DNA of 64,000 nt from contig NZ_CP092480.1 of assembly GCF_022429645.1 (NCBI RefSeq), positions 1,904,501 to 1,968,500 on the forward strand. The letters are read 5' to 3'. Position 1 is the stretch's first letter, and each line of letters begins with the position of its first letter. The DNA comes from Lutibacter sp. A80 (GTDB taxonomy: Bacteria > Bacteroidota > Bacteroidia > Flavobacteriales > Flavobacteriaceae). The notes under the pieces are model-generated. The model saw only the letters and a program-made list of their open reading frames with translations. It was not told where the DNA came from and searched no databases. Of the stretch, positions 4,961 through 14,294 are shown one piece after another. The translations under genes and the position numbers were made by a program.

Positions 4961-5212
4961 CTAAATTAATTTGACTGCATATTTAATTATTGAAAATTCT
5001 CAATATTTTAATACCCAAAAAGCATTTAAATACACGCTTTAAAACATTAAATTATAGTATTACAAATTAATACTATTTACCAATAAAAAAAAATAATTTA
5101 TTGTTTTATACTGCTTTAATATAGTTTATATAAAAACCACTTATCACTACAGTTAACAACCCTAAAAACAAGCACTTTAGGGCAAACTTAAACAAACACA
5201 ACTATTTGCTAT

Positions 5213-5244
5213 AAAAAAATAAAACGCTTAAAAATAAGCGTTTT
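5213..5244 (-). terminator. Intrinsic terminator of the phenylalanine/tyrosine operon
   Basis: A perfect 10-bp stem, AAAACGCTTA (5221-5230) with TAAGCGTTTT (5235-5244), has a 4-nt loop. Read on the minus strand it is followed by a T-rich run (5219-5213). It lies about 190 bases after the last gene of the operon. Confidence 0.75.
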
Positions 5245-5298
5245 ATTAAAGTTGTTTTTATAATACAATTCCGTTATGCAGTATAACCCTTAAAATAG

Positions 5299-5311
5299 TT
5301 TTTATACCAAT
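5299..5311 (+). repeat. 13-bp direct repeat, copy 2
   Basis: Second copy of TTTTTATACCAAT, 351 bases from the first (4948-4960). Confidence 0.5.
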
Positions 5312-5434
5312 TTATGCATGTATAGATAAAAAATAAGTTTGAAAATTACAATTCTTAATAATTCTAATTAGCACACTTAAAAAGGCCAAAATAATTAAAT
5401 ACGTTTCATTAAAATGCAGAACGGATACTGTTAA

Positions 5435-6511
5435 TTATTTTATATTACGTTGAATATTTATAGATTCAACATGTATTGCTTTAAAAACTTCCTCTACAAA
5501 TTCTTTACTTAAGCCTTTGCTAGTTCCAGTTTCTATCATAGCCGATAAAATATCTGACCATCTTCCACTTTGTAAAATAGCAACATTTTCTTTATGCTTT
5601 AATTTTCCAATTTCTTCAGCAACACCCATTCTATCGCTTAAAATATCAATAATATTACCATCAATTAAATCTAATTCTTTACGGAATAAATTCAATTTAC
5701 TTTGGAAACTTTCTTTCGAACTATTTTTCTTACGGATTTTTAAATCTTTTGTAATTTCATCCAATCTTGCAGGTGTAATTTGTTGAGCTGCATCACTCCA
5801 AGCATTGTCTGGATCAATATGAGTTTCAATCATAAATCCATCAAAATTTAAATCCAATGCAGTTTGAGAAACATCTAAAAGAGTATCTCTTCTACCACAA
5901 ATATGTGATGGATCAAGAATAATTGGTAAATCTGGGAATTCTTTTTTCAATTCAATTGCAATATGCCATTTTGGTTTATTTCTGTAATGACCTGTATTGT
6001 ATGCCGAAAATCCACGGTGAATTACACCTAATTGTGAAATTCCATTTGCTTGAAAACGTTCAACTCCACCTAACCATAAAGCTAAATCTGGATTCACTGG
6101 ATTTTTTACCAATACTGGTTTATCAACACCTTTTAATGCATCTGCAATTTCTTGAACGGCAAATGGGTTAACAGTAGTTCTAGCTCCAATCCATAAAATA
6201 TCTACATCTGCTTTTAAAGCTAATTCTACGTGATTTGCATTTCCAACTTCAGTTGTAATTTTCATACCTGTTTCTTCACGAACGCGTTGTAACCATGGCA
6301 AACCAATACCCCCAACACCTTCAAAACCTCCTGGTCTTGTTCTTGGTTTCCAAATACCAGCTCTAAACACATTTGTATCTGTATCTTTTAATAAATGAGC
6401 TGTTTTTAAAACTTGTTCTTCAGTTTCAGCACTACAAGGTCCTGCAATAACAATTGGATGATCTAACCCCATGTTATCTAACCACTTTCTGTTTTCTTTT
6501 GTAATTTCCAT
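5435..6511 (-). CDS. Bifunctional DAHP synthase / chorismate mutase (type II)
   Basis: The protein has 358 residues. Residues 1 to about 260 form a DAHP synthase of the small KDO8P-like class, with AGPCSAE (23-29) and the metal/substrate segments FRAGIWKPRT and ILDPSHICGRRD. From about residue 269 a chorismate mutase helix bundle follows (RKELDLIDGNIIDILSDRM), the typical AroQ N-terminal helix. The first domain condenses PEP with erythrose 4-phosphate, the entry step to aromatic amino acids; the second makes prephenate from chorismate. The fusion is usual in Bacteroidota. It is the last gene of the four-gene Phe/Tyr operon, 18 bases after tyrA, so the operon encodes both the pathway entrance and the Phe/Tyr branch. 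Confidence 0.93.
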   Translation of the reverse strand: MEITKENRKWLDNMGLDHPIVIAGPCSAETEEQVLKTAHLLKDTDTNVFRAGIWKPRTRPGGFEGVGGIGLPWLQRVREETGMKITTEVGNANHVELALKADVDILWIGARTTVNPFAVQEIADALKGVDKPVLVKNPVNPDLALWLGGVERFQANGISQLGVIHRGFSAYNTGHYRNKPKWHIAIELKKEFPDLPIILDPSHICGRRDTLLDVSQTALDLNFDGFMIETHIDPDNAWSDAAQQITPARLDEITKDLKIRKKNSSKESFQSKLNLFRKELDLIDGNIIDILSDRMGVAEEIGKLKHKENVAILQSGRWSDILSAMIETGTSKGLSKEFVEEVFKAIHVESINIQRNIK

Positions 6512-6529
6512 CTTATTTTTGTTTCTTAT

Positions 6530-7396
6530 TTAGTCGTTTTCTTGAATTCCGTTTAAAATTGATTTTATATAATTTGTATCGTTCATAGTTACTCTTAATC
6601 CATCGTCATCTGCATGTTCTATTAAAGATTTAAATTCAGTTAAATTTTTAATATACTCGTCTAGAGATCTAATAACATTTTCTTTATTTTCTAAAAAAAT
6701 TGGTGCCCAAGTATTTGCATTACTTTTTGCTAAACGCACTGTAGATGCAAAACCTGTACTAGCCATATCAAAAATTGCTTGTTCATTTTTTTCAATTTGC
6801 AATACTGTTTTCCCTAACATAAAAGAACTAATATGCGATAGGTGAGAAACATACGCAATATGTCTATCATGTTCTACTGGTTGCATCATTTTAATACGCA
6901 TATCTAAAAGTTTAAATAAACTTATTGCTTTATCTAAAATTTTCCAATCTGTTTTATCTGCTTCACAAATAATATTTACTTTATGATCAAACAAATTTAA
7001 AATAGCAGCTTCGGGACCTGAAAACTCTGTTCCTGCAAGCGGGTGTGCCGCTACAAAGTTTTTACGATTTTTATGATTTTCTACTGCCTTACAAATTTCA
7101 TTTTTTACAGAACCAACATCAAAAACCAACGTTTTATCAGATATAATATCCAATACTTGTTTTGTAATTTTTGGAATAATATTAACTGGTACTGCAATAA
7201 TTACCACAGCTGCATCAGCAATTTCAGAAAAATTAATTTCCTCATCAATTACTCCAAATTTTAGTGCTGCTTTTACATGTTCAGGATTTTGATCTACTCC
7301 ATAGACTTTGTAATTTCCTCTCTTTTTCAAATCCAAAGCTAAAGAACCGCCTATTAAACCTAAACCAATAACTACTAACTTTTCCATGCTACACAT
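6530..7396 (-). CDS. tyrA: Prephenate dehydrogenase
   Basis: This 288-residue protein has an N-terminal NAD-binding Rossmann motif, VVIGLGLIGGS, and the helical dehydrogenase core with the segment AHPLAGTEFSGPEAA. It oxidatively decarboxylates prephenate to 4-hydroxyphenylpyruvate for tyrosine. The first Met (7396) overlaps the upstream aminotransferase by 8 bases (ATGTGTAG). A second Met three codons later (7387) lies just after that stop and gives the more usual N-terminus MEKLVVIG, so either may be the true start. No separate chorismate mutase or ACT domain is attached; the mutase comes from the next gene. Confidence 0.92.
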   Translation of the reverse strand: MCSMEKLVVIGLGLIGGSLALDLKKRGNYKVYGVDQNPEHVKAALKFGVIDEEINFSEIADAAVVIIAVPVNIIPKITKQVLDIISDKTLVFDVGSVKNEICKAVENHKNRKNFVAAHPLAGTEFSGPEAAILNLFDHKVNIICEADKTDWKILDKAISLFKLLDMRIKMMQPVEHDRHIAYVSHLSHISSFMLGKTVLQIEKNEQAIFDMASTGFASTVRLAKSNANTWAPIFLENKENVIRSLDEYIKNLTEFKSLIEHADDDGLRVTMNDTNYIKSILNGIQEND

Positions 7397-8546
7397 TTAT
7401 AGTAATTATTCTATTTAACACTTCTTCTAGTACCTCTTCTGAAACACATAATGATGCTCTTAAATAACCAGCTCCATTAGAACCAAAAATAGTTCCTGGT
7501 GTTATAAATACATTTTTATTATACAATAAATCGTCTGTAACATCTTCAGATTTTATGCCTTTTGGTAATTTTGCCCAAACAAACAAACCTCCAATATTTT
7601 TATTATAGGTACAACCTAGTGCATCAAATATCTGCCAAACTAATGCTCTTCTTCTTTTATAAATTTCATTTTGAGATTTAAACCAATCATCCGATAATTT
7701 GAATGCTTCCACAGCTCCTTTTTGAATACCAAAAAACATACCTGAATCCATATTACTTTTTACCTGTAAAATTGTTTTAATAATTTCGGCATCTCCCACA
7801 ACCATTCCTACTCTCCAGCCTGCCATATTAAATGTTTTACTTAAAGAATTTAACTCTATAGCAACCTCTTTAGCTCCTTCTATTTCTAAAATACTAAGTG
7901 GGTTTTCATTTAAAATAAAACTATATGGATTGTCGTTAACAATTAAAATTTGATGTTTTTTAGCAAAAGCTATCAATTCTTTAAAATCTTCTTTTGAAGC
8001 AACAGCACCTGTTGGCATATGCGGATAATTGATCCACATAATTTTAACGTTATTTAAATCTTGTTGTTCTAATTCTTTAAAATTAGGCAACCAATTAGTT
8101 GAATCTGTTAAATTATATAAAATCGGTTCAGCTTCAACCAAATTTGTAACAGATGCATATGTTGGATATCCTGGATTTGGTATTAATACTTTATCGCCTT
8201 TATTTAAAAACGCCATAGAAATATGCATAATTCCTTCTTTAGAACCCATTAGGGGAAGAATTTCTGTAGCTGGATTTAAGGTAACATTGTAGTTTTCTTT
8301 ATAAAAATCTGAAATCCCGTTTCGTAATTCTGGAATTCCTTGATAACTTTGATATTGATGTGCATCTGGCAATGTTACAGCTTTTTGAATTGCTGTTATT
8401 ACACTAGTTGACGGCGCTAAATCTGGGCTTCCAATTGCTATATTTATTATTGGTTTACCTTGATTTCTTAAAGCCGCTACTTCTCTCAATTTTTTTGAGA
8501 AGTAGTATTCTTTTACATCATTTAATCTATCAGCTTTTTGTATCAT
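7389..8546 (-). CDS. Class I/II PLP-dependent aminotransferase of the Phe/Tyr operon
   Basis: This 385-residue fold-type I aminotransferase carries the PLP lysine in NSLSKTFNMAGWRVG (Lys 237) and the substrate arginine near the C-terminus (YLRASLCV). Database names for such proteins vary between aspartate and LL-diaminopimelate aminotransferase. Its place between pheA and tyrA argues that it transaminates phenylpyruvate, 4-hydroxyphenylpyruvate or prephenate. In the usual NPTG segment the first residue is Met (PHMPTG). The start codon overlaps the pheA stop by one base (TAATG), so translation is probably coupled. Confidence 0.88.
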   Translation of the reverse strand: MIQKADRLNDVKEYYFSKKLREVAALRNQGKPIINIAIGSPDLAPSTSVITAIQKAVTLPDAHQYQSYQGIPELRNGISDFYKENYNVTLNPATEILPLMGSKEGIMHISMAFLNKGDKVLIPNPGYPTYASVTNLVEAEPILYNLTDSTNWLPNFKELEQQDLNNVKIMWINYPHMPTGAVASKEDFKELIAFAKKHQILIVNDNPYSFILNENPLSILEIEGAKEVAIELNSLSKTFNMAGWRVGMVVGDAEIIKTILQVKSNMDSGMFFGIQKGAVEAFKLSDDWFKSQNEIYKRRRALVWQIFDALGCTYNKNIGGLFVWAKLPKGIKSEDVTDDLLYNKNVFITPGTIFGSNGAGYLRASLCVSEEVLEEVLNRIITINV

Positions 8547-9364
8547 TATCTTTTACCTTTTGTGTATTCTCCTAATATTTTTACTATTTCAACTTTTTCT
8601 TTAATTTCATCTATTGCATCAAAATAATCTGCATAACTTTTAAAAATAAAATCAGCAAAAAATGCATATTTCCAAGGGGTATTTATAACTGGCATAGATT
8701 GAATTTTAGACATATTTAAATTATGCTTAGCTAAAATTGAAAGTACTTCTGCTAAACTTCCAGAATCGTTACTTGTAATAAATTTTATAGAAGCTTTATT
8801 TGCAGAAACACTACTTTTATCTTTATTGTTATTTAAAATAAAAAAGCGAGTTGCATTTTCTTTAATAGTTTGAATATCTGTTGCTATAATATCTAAATCA
8901 TATATTTCTGCAGCCAATGTACTTGCAATTGCGCCTACACCTGTTAAGTTATCATCTTTAATTCTTTTAGCAACAGAAGCTGTATCTTTATCTTCTATAA
9001 GCTTGATATGCGGATAGTCTTTAAAAAAATTATGACACTGTAATAGTGCCATAGGATGAGAATATACTTCTTTAATATCTTCAATTTTTTGACCTTTCAA
9101 ACCCATTAAATTATGGCTAATTGGTAAATGAAATTCACCACAAATATTTAATTGAAAATCATCAATTAATGCGTAATTAGGCAATATTGCCCCAGCTATA
9201 GAATTTTCTATTGCCATAATTAAGACATCAGCTTTTTTGTCTAATAAAAGGTTTGGCATCTCAGAAAAAGATAAACATTCTAGTAAATCTATGTTTGCTC
9301 CAAAATATTGTTGCGCCACAATGTGGTGAAAAGACCCTTTTATACCTTGAATTGCTACTTTCAT
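8546..9364 (-). CDS. pheA: Prephenate dehydratase with C-terminal ACT domain
   Basis: In this 272-residue protein the periplasmic-binding-like dehydratase domain (about 1-180) ends with the catalytic TRF motif (KENATRFFIL). An ACT domain follows (about 190-265, SGSLAEVLSILAKHNLNMSKI). It converts prephenate to phenylpyruvate. In most homologues the ACT domain carries ESRP, which binds phenylalanine for feedback inhibition; here the matching segment reads QSMP. It is the first structural gene of the operon, and its start codon lies 16 bases after the T-run of a leader terminator, so its transcription is probably set by attenuation. Confidence 0.92.
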   Translation of the reverse strand: MKVAIQGIKGSFHHIVAQQYFGANIDLLECLSFSEMPNLLLDKKADVLIMAIENSIAGAILPNYALIDDFQLNICGEFHLPISHNLMGLKGQKIEDIKEVYSHPMALLQCHNFFKDYPHIKLIEDKDTASVAKRIKDDNLTGVGAIASTLAAEIYDLDIIATDIQTIKENATRFFILNNNKDKSSVSANKASIKFITSNDSGSLAEVLSILAKHNLNMSKIQSMPVINTPWKYAFFADFIFKSYADYFDAIDEIKEKVEIVKILGEYTKGKR

Positions 9365-9379
9365 TTTTAATTTTTGTTC

Positions 9380-9407
9380 AAAAAAAAATCTCGAAATAAT
9401 TTCGAGA
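9380..9407 (-). terminator. Attenuator terminator in the leader of the Phe/Tyr operon
   Basis: On the minus strand TCTCGAA (9407-9401) pairs with TTCGAGA (9395-9389) around a short AT loop and is followed at once by nine T (9388-9380). This is a strong intrinsic terminator, yet it lies just before pheA and not after a gene, so it can only act as a conditional stop in the leader. Confidence 0.85.
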
Positions 9408-9449
9408 CTCTATAATTTATATTTTGTTAATCAACACATACAAAGCCTC
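9404..9449 (-). promoter_or_regulatory. Predicted antiterminator pairing in the Phe/Tyr leader
   Basis: GAGGCTTTGTA (9449-9439), which begins inside the leader peptide stop codon, can pair over 11 positions (three G-U) with TATAGAGTCTC (9414-9404). The latter contains the 5' arm of the terminator, so the two structures exclude each other. GAGGCT can also pair with AGCTTC (9486-9481) in leader codons 9-10, giving the 1:2, 2:3, 3:4 logic of classical attenuators. The pairing was found by eye. Confidence 0.65.
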
Positions 9450-9510
9450 ACCCCTTATTGTTAAAATAAAAGTAAAAATAGAAGCTGTTAAATGTGTTAT
9501 TTGTAATCAT
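9448..9510 (-). CDS. Phe/Tyr leader peptide (attenuator peptide)
   Basis: This is a 20-codon ORF ending in TGA: MITNNTFNSFYFYFYFNNKG. Eight of its residues are aromatic (five Phe, three Tyr), seven of them in one run of alternating Phe and Tyr codons at positions 10-16. It lies 83 bases before pheA, upstream of the terminator and antiterminator. The design matches leader peptides such as E. coli PheL, in which a ribosome stalled for charged tRNA prevents termination. The mixed Phe and Tyr codons fit an operon that makes both amino acids. No Shine-Dalgarno sequence precedes the ATG, as expected in this phylum; the upstream bases are A-rich. Confidence 0.85.
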   Translation of the reverse strand: MITNNTFNSFYFYFYFNNKG

Positions 9511-9528
9511 AATTGTTTTAATACCCGA

Positions 9529-9536
9529 CAAATCTA
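9529..9536 (-). promoter_or_regulatory. Promoter -7 box of the Phe/Tyr operon
   Basis: TAGATTTG matches the flavobacterial TAnnTTTG box and lies 18 bases before the leader peptide ATG. No clear TTTG was found at the -33 position. Transcription from here would give a leader of roughly 150 nt before pheA. Confidence 0.55.
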
Positions 9537-9775
9537 TACATTAATTTTAAAAAAACATTCTTTTTTATAAAAAAATTTAAATACTTATTGAAAATTTAAT
9601 ATTTAACGACTTATAATATGCTTTTCTAAAATACAATACCTAATTTTTAATAATTATTAAAACAATTCAGTTTTAATTTAAAAATACTTTAGCGTAATTT
9701 AAACACATGGTACTTTAAAAACTAAACTATTATTCATAAAACAAGCTTTTACTGCAACCTTAATATAAATTTATT

Positions 9776-9783
9776 TAACTTTG
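9776..9783 (+). promoter_or_regulatory. Promoter -7 box of the wzi-like gene
   Basis: TAACTTTG fits TAnnTTTG and lies 29 bases before the TTG start at 9813. The 240 bases between it and the divergent aromatic-operon box are AT-rich, and nothing else was recognised in them. Confidence 0.5.
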
Positions 9784-9812
9784 ATTTTATATTTCATTTA
9801 AATTTTTAAATA

Positions 9813-11177
9813 TTGAAACACCTTAAAATTATATTGAATTTAACCCTATTTTTTAGCATATTTTTTGAAGTACATGCTCAAAATTACGCTATTGAACTAA
9901 ATTCAAATATTAGCAGTAAAGAAACACTTCCTTTTTTTTTAACATCAAATAAATTTGGCGCAATACCAAACAGCGATAATATTATATTGAATACAGCTAT
10001 TTTTTCTGATTTTAAAAATAACAACAACACTTTTAACATTGCTTATAAAGCATCAATATCAGGTTTTATTGCTGATAAAAATGAAGTTTTAATTAACGAA
10101 CTTTACACCAGTATTGCTACTAAAAATTTGCAATTAGACCTTGGTAGTAAAAATGAAGAAATTTTGTTTGAAGGTTTATCTGTTTCTAACGGTAATATTA
10201 TAAATTCAATTAACACAAGAGCTTTTCCTGGAATTAACTTAAAAACCAGATCTTACTTAACGCTACCTATTGCCAAAAACTGGTTAAAAGTTAAAGCTAA
10301 TTATGCTGAGTATTTTTTAAATGATAAACGCGCTGTAGAAAATGCTCATTTACATTATAAAAGCTTGTATTTAAAATCTAAGCTAAGTACTAAATTAAAT
10401 TTAATAACTGGATTAGATCACTATGTTGTTTGGGGTGGAACATCTGAAGAGTTTGGAAAACAACCTACAGGTTTTAATAATTATTTAAAATATATAACTG
10501 GACAAGGAGATGGCATTAATACCGATGAAAGCATTAATTCATCAAACGCCTGGGGAAATCATGTTGGTAATTATTTAATTCAATTAGATTATGCTGGTGA
10601 AAAAACTAACTGGAGTTTTTATGTATCACATCCTTTTGAAGATAGATCTGGAAGAGAATTTTCTAATTACCCAGATGCATTGTATGGTTTTTTTATAGAT
10701 TTAAAAAAACCAAAAAGCTTTATCACTCACTTTATTACTGAGTTTCAATACACCAAACATCAAGGAAAAAATACTTCAGAAAACGGTTTAATTGATAACT
10801 ACTTTAACAATACCGTTTATAGTAGTGGATGGACCTATTTTGGACGCACAATTGGGTCACCATTTTTCACTACAAAAACACCTATAAATGGCATTACTTA
10901 TGGTATTGCTGAAAATAGATTTACATCAATTAATGTAGGTTTTAAAGGCTATTTAAGTGAAACTATTCAGTACAAAACAAATGTTACGTATACAAAATAC
11001 CCTGGATGGTTTAACACCCCTCTTAATAAATCTTTATTTTCACCATATTTAGAAGTTTTTATTTCTAATAGCTCTATACCTTTTGAAATAACAGTTGGTA
11101 CAACTGGAGATTTCGGAGACTTTTTACCAACTAATTTTGGAGGTTTTTTAAAATTAACTAAAACTGGAATTTTTTAA
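9813..11177 (+). CDS. Wzi-like outer-membrane capsule assembly protein
   Basis: This 454-residue protein has an N-terminal signal peptide ending in VHAQ (cleavage near residue 22) and many alternating aromatic beta strands. The segments LDHYVVWGGTSEEFGKQP and YLKYITGQGDG are typical of the Wzi/capsule-assembly beta-barrel family, in which Wzi binds exported polysaccharide at the cell surface. The start is TTG: an in-frame stop lies two codons upstream, and the signal peptide needs this codon. It is followed after 3 bases by the PHP phosphatase, so the two form a unit facing the wzc-wza genes. Confidence 0.8.
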   Translation: MKHLKIILNLTLFFSIFFEVHAQNYAIELNSNISSKETLPFFLTSNKFGAIPNSDNIILNTAIFSDFKNNNNTFNIAYKASISGFIADKNEVLINELYTSIATKNLQLDLGSKNEEILFEGLSVSNGNIINSINTRAFPGINLKTRSYLTLPIAKNWLKVKANYAEYFLNDKRAVENAHLHYKSLYLKSKLSTKLNLITGLDHYVVWGGTSEEFGKQPTGFNNYLKYITGQGDGINTDESINSSNAWGNHVGNYLIQLDYAGEKTNWSFYVSHPFEDRSGREFSNYPDALYGFFIDLKKPKSFITHFITEFQYTKHQGKNTSENGLIDNYFNNTVYSSGWTYFGRTIGSPFFTTKTPINGITYGIAENRFTSINVGFKGYLSETIQYKTNVTYTKYPGWFNTPLNKSLFSPYLEVFISNSSIPFEITVGTTGDFGDFLPTNFGGFLKLTKTGIF

Positions 11178-11180
11178 GCT

Positions 11181-11921
11181 ATGCTGTCTTTATTTAAAAA
11201 AAACAAACATACAATTACAACGTTATTTCCTGAAACTTATATAGATATTCATTCGCATTTATTACCAAATATTGATGATGGCTCTAAAAGTTTTGAAGAA
11301 TCTACCCTACTTCTAAAAAAGCTTTCTAGTTATGGAATTAAAAACTTTGTTATTACACCACATATAATGGATGGTGTTTGGAATAATACTACGCAAATAA
11401 TAAATCAAAAACTTTTTGAATTAACTAACTATTTAAAATCGCAAGGCATAGATGATTTAAACATTAGAGCTGCAGCAGAATATATGATAGATGCTAATTT
11501 TGAAAAATTATTAAGTGAAAAAGACTTACTTACTATTAAAGACCAATATGTACTTGTAGAATTATCATATTTTAACCCTCCAATAAATTTAAATGAAATA
11601 CTTTTTAATATTCAAATAGCTGGATATAAACCTATTCTTGCACATCCGGAAAGGTATATTTTTTACCATTCTAATTACAAAAAATATTACGAATTAAAAG
11701 AATTAGGCTGTTTATTCCAATTGAATTTACTTTCATTATCACAGCATTATGGTTCTAAAATAACTAAAATAGCTGAACGCTTATTAAAAGATAACTTAAT
11801 AGATTTTACAGGAACAGATACGCACAATATACGTCATTTAAACACTTTAGAGACTATTAACAACAGTAAACTATTAAAGTTAATAACTCCAATTTTAGAA
11901 AACAACGCTAAGTTGCTTTAA
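11181..11921 (+). CDS. PHP-domain tyrosine-protein phosphatase (CpsB/YwqE type)
   Basis: This 246-residue metal-dependent phosphatase has the PHP motifs in order: DIHSHLLPNIDDGS (metal His 24 and 26), TPHIM, the conserved Glu of AEYMID, AHPERY, and TDTHN near the C-terminus. CpsB/YwqE enzymes use Mn and dephosphorylate the tyrosine-rich tail of the polysaccharide co-polymerase kinase. The target here is probably the Wzc-like kinase encoded convergently 24 bases away, which ends in a Tyr-Gly repeat. The kinase-phosphatase pair would control chain length and export. Confidence 0.9.
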   Translation: MLSLFKKNKHTITTLFPETYIDIHSHLLPNIDDGSKSFEESTLLLKKLSSYGIKNFVITPHIMDGVWNNTTQIINQKLFELTNYLKSQGIDDLNIRAAAEYMIDANFEKLLSEKDLLTIKDQYVLVELSYFNPPINLNEILFNIQIAGYKPILAHPERYIFYHSNYKKYYELKELGCLFQLNLLSLSQHYGSKITKIAERLLKDNLIDFTGTDTHNIRHLNTLETINNSKLLKLITPILENNAKLL

Positions 11922-11945: not shown

Positions 11946-14294
11946 TTAAAAAGACATTATTTTTTGCCACCATTTTTTTGACTTAAGTCCTCTTTCGGTA
12001 TAACCATAACCATACCCGTAACCATAGCCATACCCTCTTTCTAGATCGGTATCGTTTATTAAGGCTGCCATATTTGGCAAGCGCTTATCTTTATATAATT
12101 TATTAGGAATTTCTAGTAAGCGTTTGTCTAAAAAATTAGCTCTTACAACATAAATAAATAAATCTGCATTTTTACTAAATAATAAAGTATCTGTTACAAT
12201 ATTTATAGGAGCAGTATCAACAATTACATAATCGTAATGCGTTTCCCCATAAGCTAAAATTTCATCAAAACGGCCATTCATTAATAATTCTGAAGGATTA
12301 GGGGCAACAATTCCAGATTCTAAAATATCAAAATTAGTTTCTTTAAATTGCTCAATTACATCAGGCACTTGTAATGATGGATCCATTAAAAAATGTGAAA
12401 GTCCTTTTTTAGTAGATTTAATTTTTAAATATTCAACAATTTTAGGCTTTCGAATATCACCTCCAACTAACAATACTTTTTTATTTGTTAACGCCAATAC
12501 AGATGCTAAATTTATAGCAATAAAGGTTTTCCCTTCACCAGCCAAAGTAGATGTTATAAATATAGTTTTAGAAGCTTTTTTAACGCTAGAAAGCATAAAG
12601 TTCACATTGGTTCTTAGCAGTCTAAAAGATTCTGATGTACTATCTCTATCCTTATCTGAAATAATTACTTTCTTTTCTGATTTAGATTGTGGGATATCTC
12701 CTAAAATAGGAATATCAACTAATGCTTCTACCTCTTTACGAGTGTGTACTTTATTATCTAATAAAAATAGAATATACAATGTTGCAAATGGTAAAATTAA
12801 GCCTACAAGTAAGGCTGCTAAAAAATACATTCTACGATTTGGAGCTACAGGATAACCACTACCATAAGCTTTATCAACAATTTTTGCATTAGGCAATGTT
12901 ACTGCTAAAGAAATTGCATTCTCTTCACGTTTTTGCAATAAATACAAGTATAAAGATTCTATTATTTGTTGTTGCCTTTGAATATCTCTATACTCTCTCT
13001 CTTGTTTTGGAACTGCTGCAATTTTTGAATTAAACCTAACTTCTTGACTCTTTATATCGTTTAAAGATATTGTTAACGAAGATTTTAAGTTTGACAAACT
13101 CTGCGAAATATTTTCTCTAAATTGACGTAATTGTAAATTTAAATTCACAATTGTTGGATGTAGTTCACTTGTACTTTTTAATATTCTATTACGCTCTAAC
13201 AAAACTTGGTTATACTTAGTAGTGCTTTCGGCAATTGAACTATTTTCTAAACCTAAGTCCGCAGGAATTAACTGCTCTCCATTTGTTGAAATATATTCAT
13301 CAACAAAATCAACCAACTTTAACTGTGTGCTTAAAGCTATAATTTGCTTAGACAAATCATTTTTCGATTGTAAAGCAATTCCAGCCTCCGAAGAAATATC
13401 GGTTAACCCATTTTGGGTTTTAAATTGCTCTACACCTGCTTCAATAAGAGATAAATCCTTATCAATAATTGAAATTCTATCATTAATAAATTCATTGGTT
13501 CGCTTCGCTATTAAACTCTTATCTGTAACAGCATCATCATTATACTGCTTTATTAAATTATCAAGAATTTCTTGTGCTTTTTCATTAACCCTATCTCTTA
13601 AAATTAAACGAATAACACTAGAATTTTTAACTACAGCAACCTGAATTCTATTTCTATAACTCTCAACAACAGATTTTAAAGGAATAATTTTAATAATTGT
13701 TTCATCTCCAACTCTTAACTTATCCAAATCTTTAGGCGTTATAATAATATCTCCAAAAGGCAAACTTACTTTTTCTCCAAAAGCCACTTTTTTTTCATCT
13801 AAATTTGTTTTTACAACAATATCTGTTTTAGATTTTACAATAATTGAAAACGTAGTGCTTAAGTTTTCTAAAATAGAATCGCTAATTAAAAAATTAATAT
13901 TCAGCTGCGAACTTTTATTAATAAATTCGGCTTCAATTACTCTTCCTTGGGTATAATAAGTAACATTTAATTTTAATTCTTTCGCAACTCTTTCAATTAA
14001 GTTTCTAGACTTTAGTAGCTCTATTTCATTTTCTAAAGATGCTTGTGAACTACCTACTAAACCTAAATCTTTAAATGCAGAAAGTTCATTATTTTCAACA
14101 TCTTCAATTAAAATAGTTGCAGAAGCTTCATATAGATTTGGTGTATAACGTAAATAAACATAAACAATAGCAAGCGCTAAAAACGTGCTAAGCACAAACC
14201 ATTTCCAATGGTAAACATACCGTTCAATTTCTTCACGTATATTTATGGTCCCCTCGTTAAAATTTATGGGGCTATGTTCCTTGTTTCCTTGCAT
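11946..14294 (-). CDS. Wzc-like polysaccharide co-polymerase / BY-kinase
   Basis: The protein has 782 residues. An N-terminal Wzz domain begins with a membrane segment (about 34-50, FVLSTFLALAIVYVYL). A long coiled-coil periplasmic region follows, then a second membrane segment (MYFLAALLVGLILPFATLYILFL, near 500). The cytoplasmic BY-kinase has Walker A SAGEGKT-like TLAGEGKT, Walker A' VGGDIRKP and Walker B YVIVDTAP. The C-terminus carries alternating Tyr and Gly (YGYGYGYGYGY), the usual autophosphorylation cluster. Such kinases drive chain elongation and export by cycling between phosphorylated and free states. It lies one base after the wza-like gene and is transcribed with it. Confidence 0.92.
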   Translation of the reverse strand: MQGNKEHSPINFNEGTINIREEIERYVYHWKWFVLSTFLALAIVYVYLRYTPNLYEASATILIEDVENNELSAFKDLGLVGSSQASLENEIELLKSRNLIERVAKELKLNVTYYTQGRVIEAEFINKSSQLNINFLISDSILENLSTTFSIIVKSKTDIVVKTNLDEKKVAFGEKVSLPFGDIIITPKDLDKLRVGDETIIKIIPLKSVVESYRNRIQVAVVKNSSVIRLILRDRVNEKAQEILDNLIKQYNDDAVTDKSLIAKRTNEFINDRISIIDKDLSLIEAGVEQFKTQNGLTDISSEAGIALQSKNDLSKQIIALSTQLKLVDFVDEYISTNGEQLIPADLGLENSSIAESTTKYNQVLLERNRILKSTSELHPTIVNLNLQLRQFRENISQSLSNLKSSLTISLNDIKSQEVRFNSKIAAVPKQEREYRDIQRQQQIIESLYLYLLQKREENAISLAVTLPNAKIVDKAYGSGYPVAPNRRMYFLAALLVGLILPFATLYILFLLDNKVHTRKEVEALVDIPILGDIPQSKSEKKVIISDKDRDSTSESFRLLRTNVNFMLSSVKKASKTIFITSTLAGEGKTFIAINLASVLALTNKKVLLVGGDIRKPKIVEYLKIKSTKKGLSHFLMDPSLQVPDVIEQFKETNFDILESGIVAPNPSELLMNGRFDEILAYGETHYDYVIVDTAPINIVTDTLLFSKNADLFIYVVRANFLDKRLLEIPNKLYKDKRLPNMAALINDTDLERGYGYGYGYGYGYTERGLKSKKWWQKIMSF

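Follow-up and report, generated by a model that had tools for sequence, protein, structure and literature searches.

A putative ribosome-mediated attenuator with a mixed Phe/Tyr leader peptide at the head of the aromatic amino acid operon of Lutibacter sp. A80 and relatives in the class Bacteroidia

The aromatic amino acid operon of Lutibacter sp. A80, comprising pheA, an aminotransferase gene, tyrA and a DAHPS/CM gene, is very probably controlled by a ribosome-mediated transcription attenuator, in which translation of a short leader peptide would sense charged tRNA-Phe and tRNA-Tyr. In the window, by which we mean the whole stretch of 64,000 nucleotides that was analysed, the leader ORF lies on the minus strand at positions 9448-9510, begins with ATG, counts 20 codons and translates as MITNNTFNSFYFYFYFNNKG followed by a UGA stop codon; 83 nt separate this stop from pheA. 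It holds eight aromatic codons in total, namely the regulatory run Phe-Tyr-Phe-Tyr-Phe-Tyr-Phe at codons 10-16 (9463-9483, minus strand) and one extra Phe at codon 7, and translation of 9448-9510 reproduced exactly the ORF that had been described in the initial annotation of this DNA.

The order of the downstream genes given at that time also agreed with their Pfam assignments. All four genes lie on the minus strand: pheA (8546-9364) encodes a prephenate dehydratase (Pfam PDT, with an ACT domain slightly under the Pfam cut-off), and is followed by a PLP-dependent aminotransferase of class I/II (7389-8546; Pfam), by tyrA, encoding prephenate dehydrogenase (6530-7396; PDH_N/PDH_C), and by a DAHP synthase-chorismate mutase fusion, DAHPS/CM (5435-6511; DAHP_synth_1 and CM_2). 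Two of the three gene junctions overlap and the remaining one is a gap of 18 nt. The aminotransferase is presumed from its operon context to act on aromatic substrates; its best NCBIfam match, which is sub-threshold, is LL-diaminopimelate aminotransferase. DAHPS/CM seems to be the genome's sole DAHP synthase: PF00793 matches just one further protein, KDO-8-P synthase, and PF01474 matches none.

Eight aromatic codons in twenty had been judged very unlikely to stand by chance before precisely this operon. For a single sequence these odds were overstated, and they leave some room for the ORF being a chance product of AT-rich DNA: given the nucleotide frequencies of 9365-9812, any one codon is aromatic with a probability of 0.168, and at least eight of 20 occur with P = 0.012. 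Seven consecutive aromatic codons are a rarer event at the same composition (P = 4e-6). It is the comparison with relatives and shuffles that settles the question against chance. As the initial annotation had expected for close relatives, the leader was found throughout the genus: pheA is present in 36 of 38 Lutibacter genomes, and all 36 carry a leader and a terminator. A strict test, which asks for six of ten codons to be aromatic together with a terminator, was passed by 220 of 246 pheA loci anchored by tblastn, representing 202 distinct sequences (the 246 include some genomes twice; L001-L004, L041 and L189 had been omitted before this count as repeats of the window or of L038, or as chance DNA matches). 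Dinucleotide shuffles of the upstream regions passed the leader-plus-terminator test in only 2 of 606 cases, none with seven or more aromatic codons. When the window was cut into 390 overlapping tiles and both strands were examined, the test was positive at this locus only. Control stretches from the named loci, again on both strands, passed in 6 of 2098 cases; one of the six, at locus L151, is an aromatic leader with a terminator before a DAHPS/CM gene, and the other five have six aromatic codons in ten. A chance ORF is refuted by these relatives and shuffles, and we regard its probability as negligible.

Three possible helices were recognised between the start of the leader and pheA, all on the minus strand, and the region folds better than expected (9365-9515, z -3.66; 0 of 200 shuffles as low). 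Segment 1, the 5' arm of a 1:2 hairpin, lies within the leader ORF at 9481-9499, as seen in the minimum free energy fold and the genus alignment. Segment 2 (9432-9449), supported by folding and alignment, overlaps the leader stop codon and can pair with segment 1 or, through 9439-9449, with segment 3 (9404-9414), which is the 3' arm of the predicted antiterminator and overlaps the 5' arm of the terminator. The predicted intrinsic terminator (3:4) spans 9380-9411, consists of a 12-pair hairpin (9385-9411) and a T tract, and ends 15 nt before the pheA ATG. The 2:3 helix joins 9439-9449 to 9404-9414 through 11 pairs with no mismatch. Helices 2:3 and 3:4 use one and the same terminator 5' arm and their computed energies are equal, at -11.5 kcal/mol apiece; which of the two prevails should therefore depend on the sequence in which they form as the RNA is transcribed.

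These helices lend themselves to the 1:2, 2:3 and 3:4 scheme of the E. coli pheL/pheA attenuator. Transcription would start slightly upstream of the leader ORF. With Phe-tRNA and Tyr-tRNA both well charged, the ribosome would reach the UGA stop and cover segment 2, whereupon 3:4 would form and RNA polymerase would terminate 15 nt before pheA. If either Phe-tRNA or Tyr-tRNA were scarce, the ribosome would stall within codons 7-16, where it would cover segment 1 or hold the 1:2 hairpin open; segment 2 would then be left free to pair with segment 3, and the operon would be transcribed.

Support for the 1:2 and 3:4 helices was sought among the 36 sequences of the genus. The 3:4 helix is paired in 99.1% of alignment cells (28-69% in versions slid along the alignment) and the 1:2 helix in 83.1% (40-50% in slid versions), and the covariation scores of both exceed all 500 shuffles and every slid version. 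Counting the pairs in which both sides have changed does not decide the matter: there are five in 1:2, a value that 72 of 500 shuffles attain and that a slide of -2 surpasses with six, and three in 3:4, which 11 of 500 shuffles attain and a slide of -1 surpasses with four. Pairs 21-76, 24-73 and 25-72 of the 1:2 helix are weak, and the comparison for this helix covers genus sequences. Helix 2:3 is paired in 85.6% of cells; within the genus four of its 11 pairs never vary, there is no two-sided change and there is no excess over its shuffles.

The predicted antiterminator does track the terminator arm across the wider set of loci, a correspondence that is not visible in the genus alone. Among the 202 distinct loci, the core of the terminator arm is TCTC in 116, TCCC in 46, TCCT in 29, TTCC in four and of another kind in seven. 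When segment 2 was scored against the arm of its own locus, the mean 2:3 scores of the three main classes were 16.9, 18.6 and 19.7; exchanging the arm for those of the two remaining main classes lowered them to 10.4-14.0. Arms taken from another species of the same class gave 16.2 for TCTC, 18.1 for TCCT and 14.7 for TCCC, the last being the weakest class, as this value hardly exceeds the 14.0 obtained with the TCTC arm; the TTCC class shows little separation from TCTC arms (15.9). Over all 202 loci the mean 2:3 score was 17.7, against 10.8 for shuffled segments. With 50 shuffles per locus, none matched the observed score in 97 loci, at most two did in 161 and more than two did in 41.

The position of segment 2 appears to be set by the aromatic run rather than by the stop codon. 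It starts at a median of 12 nt past the last aromatic codon (interquartile range 11-14, standard deviation 2.1; 200 of 202 loci, the two left out having a 2:3 score below 12). The distance from segment 2 to the stop codon scatters more widely (standard deviation 8.8), because the leader extends from 1 to 13 codons beyond the run. We then folded the RNA under an equilibrium model in which the ribosome is assumed to shield the RNA between a point 15 nt 5' of the P site and one 13 nt 3' of the A site's first base. In the window, with this assumed footprint, the probability of 2:3 pairing is 0.94-0.96 for an A site at codons 2-16; past the last Phe codon it falls to 0.50 at codon 17 and 0.18 at codon 18, and is 0 from codon 19 to the stop. 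Its value with no ribosome is 0.49. Mean probabilities for aromatic stalls, the stop state and the ribosome-free state are 0.91, 0.00 and 0.46 in the genus, and 0.88, 0.025 and 0.61 in the other 166 loci. The probability is higher for aromatic stalls than for the stop state in all 36 genus loci and in 163 of 166 others, and higher than for the ribosome-free state in 34 of 36 and 119 of 166; in the remaining 47 of the 166 it is not. According to this model, the spacing would let a ribosome stalled on the run free segment 2 and a ribosome at the stop codon cover it. The ribosome-free state comes out as intermediate, so that it would not be clearly off, and this is the weak point of the equilibrium treatment. 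The terminator and the antiterminator, which the initial annotation did not give, are together with the spacing the strongest evidence for its proposal of a leader-peptide attenuator, which the comparison with relatives supports.

The ORF could in principle encode a small hydrophobic peptide that plays an independent role, such as a membrane micropeptide, with the terminator being a separate element. Its shortness, its aromatic middle and the preservation of its sequence within the genus would suit such a peptide. Leu, Ile and Val, which a membrane peptide would use, are nevertheless rare, amounting to 36, 68 and 50 respectively (154 of the 3006 codons before the end of the run in the 202 leaders), the part of the ORF beyond the run is anywhere between 1 and 13 codons long, and it is the run, not the stop, that is locked to segment 2. 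Inspection of the same genome also pointed to candidate leaders before three other operons, each carrying the amino acid of its own operon. A candidate Trp leader, MKNNTLNNNWWWNSLSS, stands before trpE (L304, 2062-2115, minus strand); its terminator is strong, and a sequence resembling TAnnTTTG lies upstream of it. A candidate His leader with HHH, MRTIQLHHHLNTCNQAS when read from an inner ATG, precedes hisG (L303, 2221-2319, minus strand) and likewise has a strong terminator. A candidate leader rich in Ile, Val and Leu and ending in NILINIISIIVSVIIHK precedes ilvD (L306, 2901-2984, minus strand), and its terminator, also strong, lies about 280 nt before the apparent ilvD start. These three come from a single-genome inspection, with one look at each; of the two PF04715 and the two PF00920 matches in the genome, one of each has such a leader. 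The Phe/Tyr leader would have company in the WWW, HHH and I/V/L-rich candidates, and we consider a peptide with its own function very improbable. The trp, his and ilv leader-peptide attenuators follow the same plan as the attenuator proposed here and differ in their regulatory codons and operons.

Control of the terminator by an element that dispenses with a leader ribosome was considered as well. T-boxes, riboswitches and elements bound by RNA-binding proteins likewise operate via a competing terminator and antiterminator, and would account for that part of the structure. A scan of the window with Rfam 15 (4227 families, which we take to include those covering proteobacterial amino acid leaders and the T-box) gave no family at the leader at the gathering threshold, the sole match being a tRNA. 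Such an element would give no reason for the presence of the ORF, for its choice of codons or for the 12 nt that separate the run from segment 2, and it strikes us as less probable still than the independent peptide.

Turning back to the leader-peptide attenuator, a candidate promoter was found where its transcription might begin. The element TAGATTTG at 9529-9536 on the minus strand starts 26 nt 5' of the leader ATG and fits TAnnTTTG, which we take to be the Bacteroidota -7 promoter consensus. Within 70 nt of the leader ATG this motif is present in 34 of the 35 genus upstream regions that are long enough, with 5.1 expected from shuffles; outside the genus an exact TAnnTTTG was found in 40 of 166 loci, with 13.0 expected. 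Matches to a sigma-70-type promoter in 5000-9900 were at shuffle level (26 against 30.2) and were not used.

Beyond the genus, the leader was traced through the family and, more unevenly, through the order and class. In the family, pheA is present in 268 of 299 genomes, 265 of them outside Lutibacter, and all 68 loci examined outside the genus (L042-L108 and L237, mostly better-scoring ones) have the leader. Among the best 80 of 583 named loci, the leader lies within 650 nt of pheA in 79, the exception being Cecembia rubra (L151). Other families of the order passed the strict test in one of five loci (f15, with three more showing a weaker leader), two of three (f2), one of one (f3), three of three examined out of four (f9) and none of one (f12); f11 and f13 each hold one further match. 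No leader was seen before pheA in the six f16 loci examined out of 19, from genomes whose size of about 0.6 Mb suggests reduced endosymbionts, or in the ten f5 loci examined out of 19. The PheA profile matches of the f5 genomes are much weaker, and the ten loci, which tblastn did not anchor and which stand outside the 246, were judged leader-less by position. Elsewhere in the class, beyond this order, 50 genomes have a match; among the 24 loci with the best scores there, 11 pass the strict test and 13 fail. Several failing loci retain part of the arrangement: L191, L192 and L196 have five aromatic codons and a good terminator, L216 has a leader with a weak terminator, L242 and L251 have a short QTYFWFYP leader with a terminator, and L262 has a terminator only; the remaining misses in the 246 are L151, L239, L240 and 16 others. 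An in-frame ATG lies within 60 nt of the run in all 202 distinct leaders. The reading of L133 and L149 as leader-less was rejected: their leaders lie 545 and 407 nt upstream of pheA and were counted as present. At L133 (Gelidibacter), GC-rich hairpin units CCCGCYGAAAGGCGGG that share a flank recur within the 350 nt before pheA, between it and the leader.

The exceptions at L151, L239 and L240 indicate that the putative leader is tied to the aromatic operon and not to pheA itself. In Cecembia rubra (L151), pheA is preceded by ORFs recognised by eye as aroB, aroA and a small gene, and a leader of 31 codons, with eight of ten codons aromatic and its own terminator, precedes by 68 nt a DAHPS/CM gene situated further up than these ORFs. 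From this arrangement a leader was predicted further upstream of L239 and L240, where pheA has none and, in L239, an aroA-like ORF directly precedes it; it was then found in the same genomes at L263 and L264, 68 and 67 nt before the DAHPS/CM match. Three other genomes of family f30 (L265, L266 and L267) have the leader directly before pheA. In Cecembia rubra two DAHPS/CM genes stand in tandem (L151, 77-754 and 1066-2166) with the aromatic leader between them, and the same is seen in L264; this second copy 5' of the leader calls for caution, and the leader would be only the presumed head of the operon. A survey of 18 genomes (nine of f5, three of f16, and G344, G392, G533, G610, G481 and G522) showed scattered ORFs with five or six aromatic codons in ten near the DAHPS/CM matches, none of which was judged by eye, from position and terminator, to be a leader.

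The initial annotation had further suggested asking whether the run is kept as its surroundings change. Outside the genus it remains rich in aromatic codons: the run uses TTT and TTC, and TAT and TAC, freely, Phe and Tyr codons trade places between lineages, and flanking codons vary. Among the Lutibacter leaders no variation is seen at codons -1 to -5 of the run, synonymous sites included, and coding and RNA-level constraint are therefore inseparable there. Over the 3006 codons that precede the run end in the 202 leaders, 930 are Phe, 599 Tyr and 107 Trp; owing to how the run is chosen, its last codon is necessarily aromatic and aromatic codons close by are favoured, with no effect on the Phe/Tyr split or on the presence of Trp. 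Asn, Ser, Gly and Thr occur within the last eight codons of the run, mainly towards its 5' end.

Whether Tyr codons are read at all bears on a variant of the same attenuator that responds in practice to Phe only, its Tyr codons being passengers or setting distance. The mixed leader AroR (Phe-Tyr-Phe) of Corynebacterium glutamicum is reported to answer to Phe limitation, with Tyr having no effect (PMC11802643, accessible text), Phe is the commoner codon before the run end, and our footprint model makes no difference between a stall at Phe and one at Tyr, so that it cannot tell the two apart. Neutral Tyr codons would, on the other hand, be expected to drift to others, and yet both Phe and Tyr precede the run end in 202 of 202 leaders and the two swap between lineages; the operon, moreover, makes both products. 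On balance we find the Phe-only variant rather unlikely, and sensing of both tRNAs the better reading.

Trp codons add a third amino acid. They occur in 106 of the 202 leaders overall and in 29 of 36 in the genus. Set against the 107 of 3006 codons before the run end, Trp accounts for 6 of 1557 codons after it and for 17 of 1307 in the proteins encoded by the window's four operon genes. Counted back from the run end, codon -10 of the 36 Lutibacter leaders is Trp in 29, Phe in five, Tyr in one and Thr in one, the window species having Phe, and the Trp codons of the genus may represent one inheritance. A Trp codon in the leaders of relatives would make sense if, as in the window genome, the operon holds the sole DAHP synthase. 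The chances seem to us evenly balanced that the leader serves much of the class Bacteroidia as a general sensor of aromatic amino acids, reading Phe-, Tyr- and, in the 106 leaders concerned, Trp-tRNA and travelling with the operon; reading of three tRNAs would follow from the operon holding the only DAHP synthase of the genome, as found for the window. Bacteroidota make little use of Shine-Dalgarno sites, and under this general reading the wide conservation of the leader would imply that transcription and translation are coupled closely enough for attenuation.

Several known systems resemble the one proposed here. In E. coli, the Phe leader peptide pheL lies upstream of pheA and exerts control by charged tRNA-Phe (PMC11802643, accessible text). 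The Lutibacter leader likewise precedes pheA and differs in alternating Phe and Tyr, in heading an operon that also holds tyrA and DAHPS/CM, and in having no Rfam match. The aroR leader of C. glutamicum, before the aroF (DAHPS) operon, is induced through ribosome stalling and is likewise a mixed Phe/Tyr leader before an operon with a DAHP synthase; it belongs to an actinobacterium and has Phe-Tyr-Phe where seven alternating codons stand here, and no Trp is mentioned for it in the same accessible text. Closest to our case, a 2021 paper on Flavobacterium psychrophilum reports a transcribed, structured 5' element upstream of pheA that is conserved in other Flavobacteriaceae genera and has no Rfam match, names a hisG 5' element too, and speaks of 'strong clues' for leader-peptide attenuation of amino acid operons generally (PMC9723704, main text). 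F. psychrophilum is outside the loci compared here, and its pheA element is probably the same as ours. The part of PMC9723704 that deals with this element names neither a peptide nor its codons, and mentions no alternative structure and no occurrence outside the family; further detail may stand in Table S7 and Appendix D9 of that paper. Small ORFs resembling leaders, within long 5' UTRs, are also described in Bacteroides thetaiotaomicron, the example being a hypothetical protein gene, BT_4401, and not an aromatic operon (PMC7366714, accessible part).

The novelty implied for such an attenuator in a flavobacterium is thus lowered by PMC9723704 and by Corynebacterium AroR, and would lie in the peptide, the switch and the geometry. 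The Phe/Tyr leader peptide found here is not described in the parts at hand of PMC4833913, PMC9723704 (its supplement aside), PMC7366714 and PMC11802643, and the literature found, as far as its text was available, has no account of the switch, the geometry or the Trp codon of the pheA leader. The mechanism itself is classical; what deserves to be followed is how widely the leader is spread, that it moves with the operon, and that its codons cover three aromatic amino acids. What emerges is a concrete and conserved candidate regulator of aromatic amino acid synthesis, in a phylum for which the literature found holds only general mentions, with a short leader ORF of a kind that annotation probably overlooks. 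The mixed codons raise the question of whether one attenuator reads two tRNAs or three, and the predicted switch would be a natural reporter of how closely the leading ribosome follows RNA polymerase in Bacteroidota.

Elsewhere in the window, positions 11946-14294 (minus strand) hold the gene of a Wzc-like polysaccharide tyrosine autokinase whose C-terminal tail alternates Gly and Tyr, GYGYGYGYGYGY. It is adjoined at 11181-11921 by the gene of a Cps4B-like protein, the match being under the NCBIfam cut-off.
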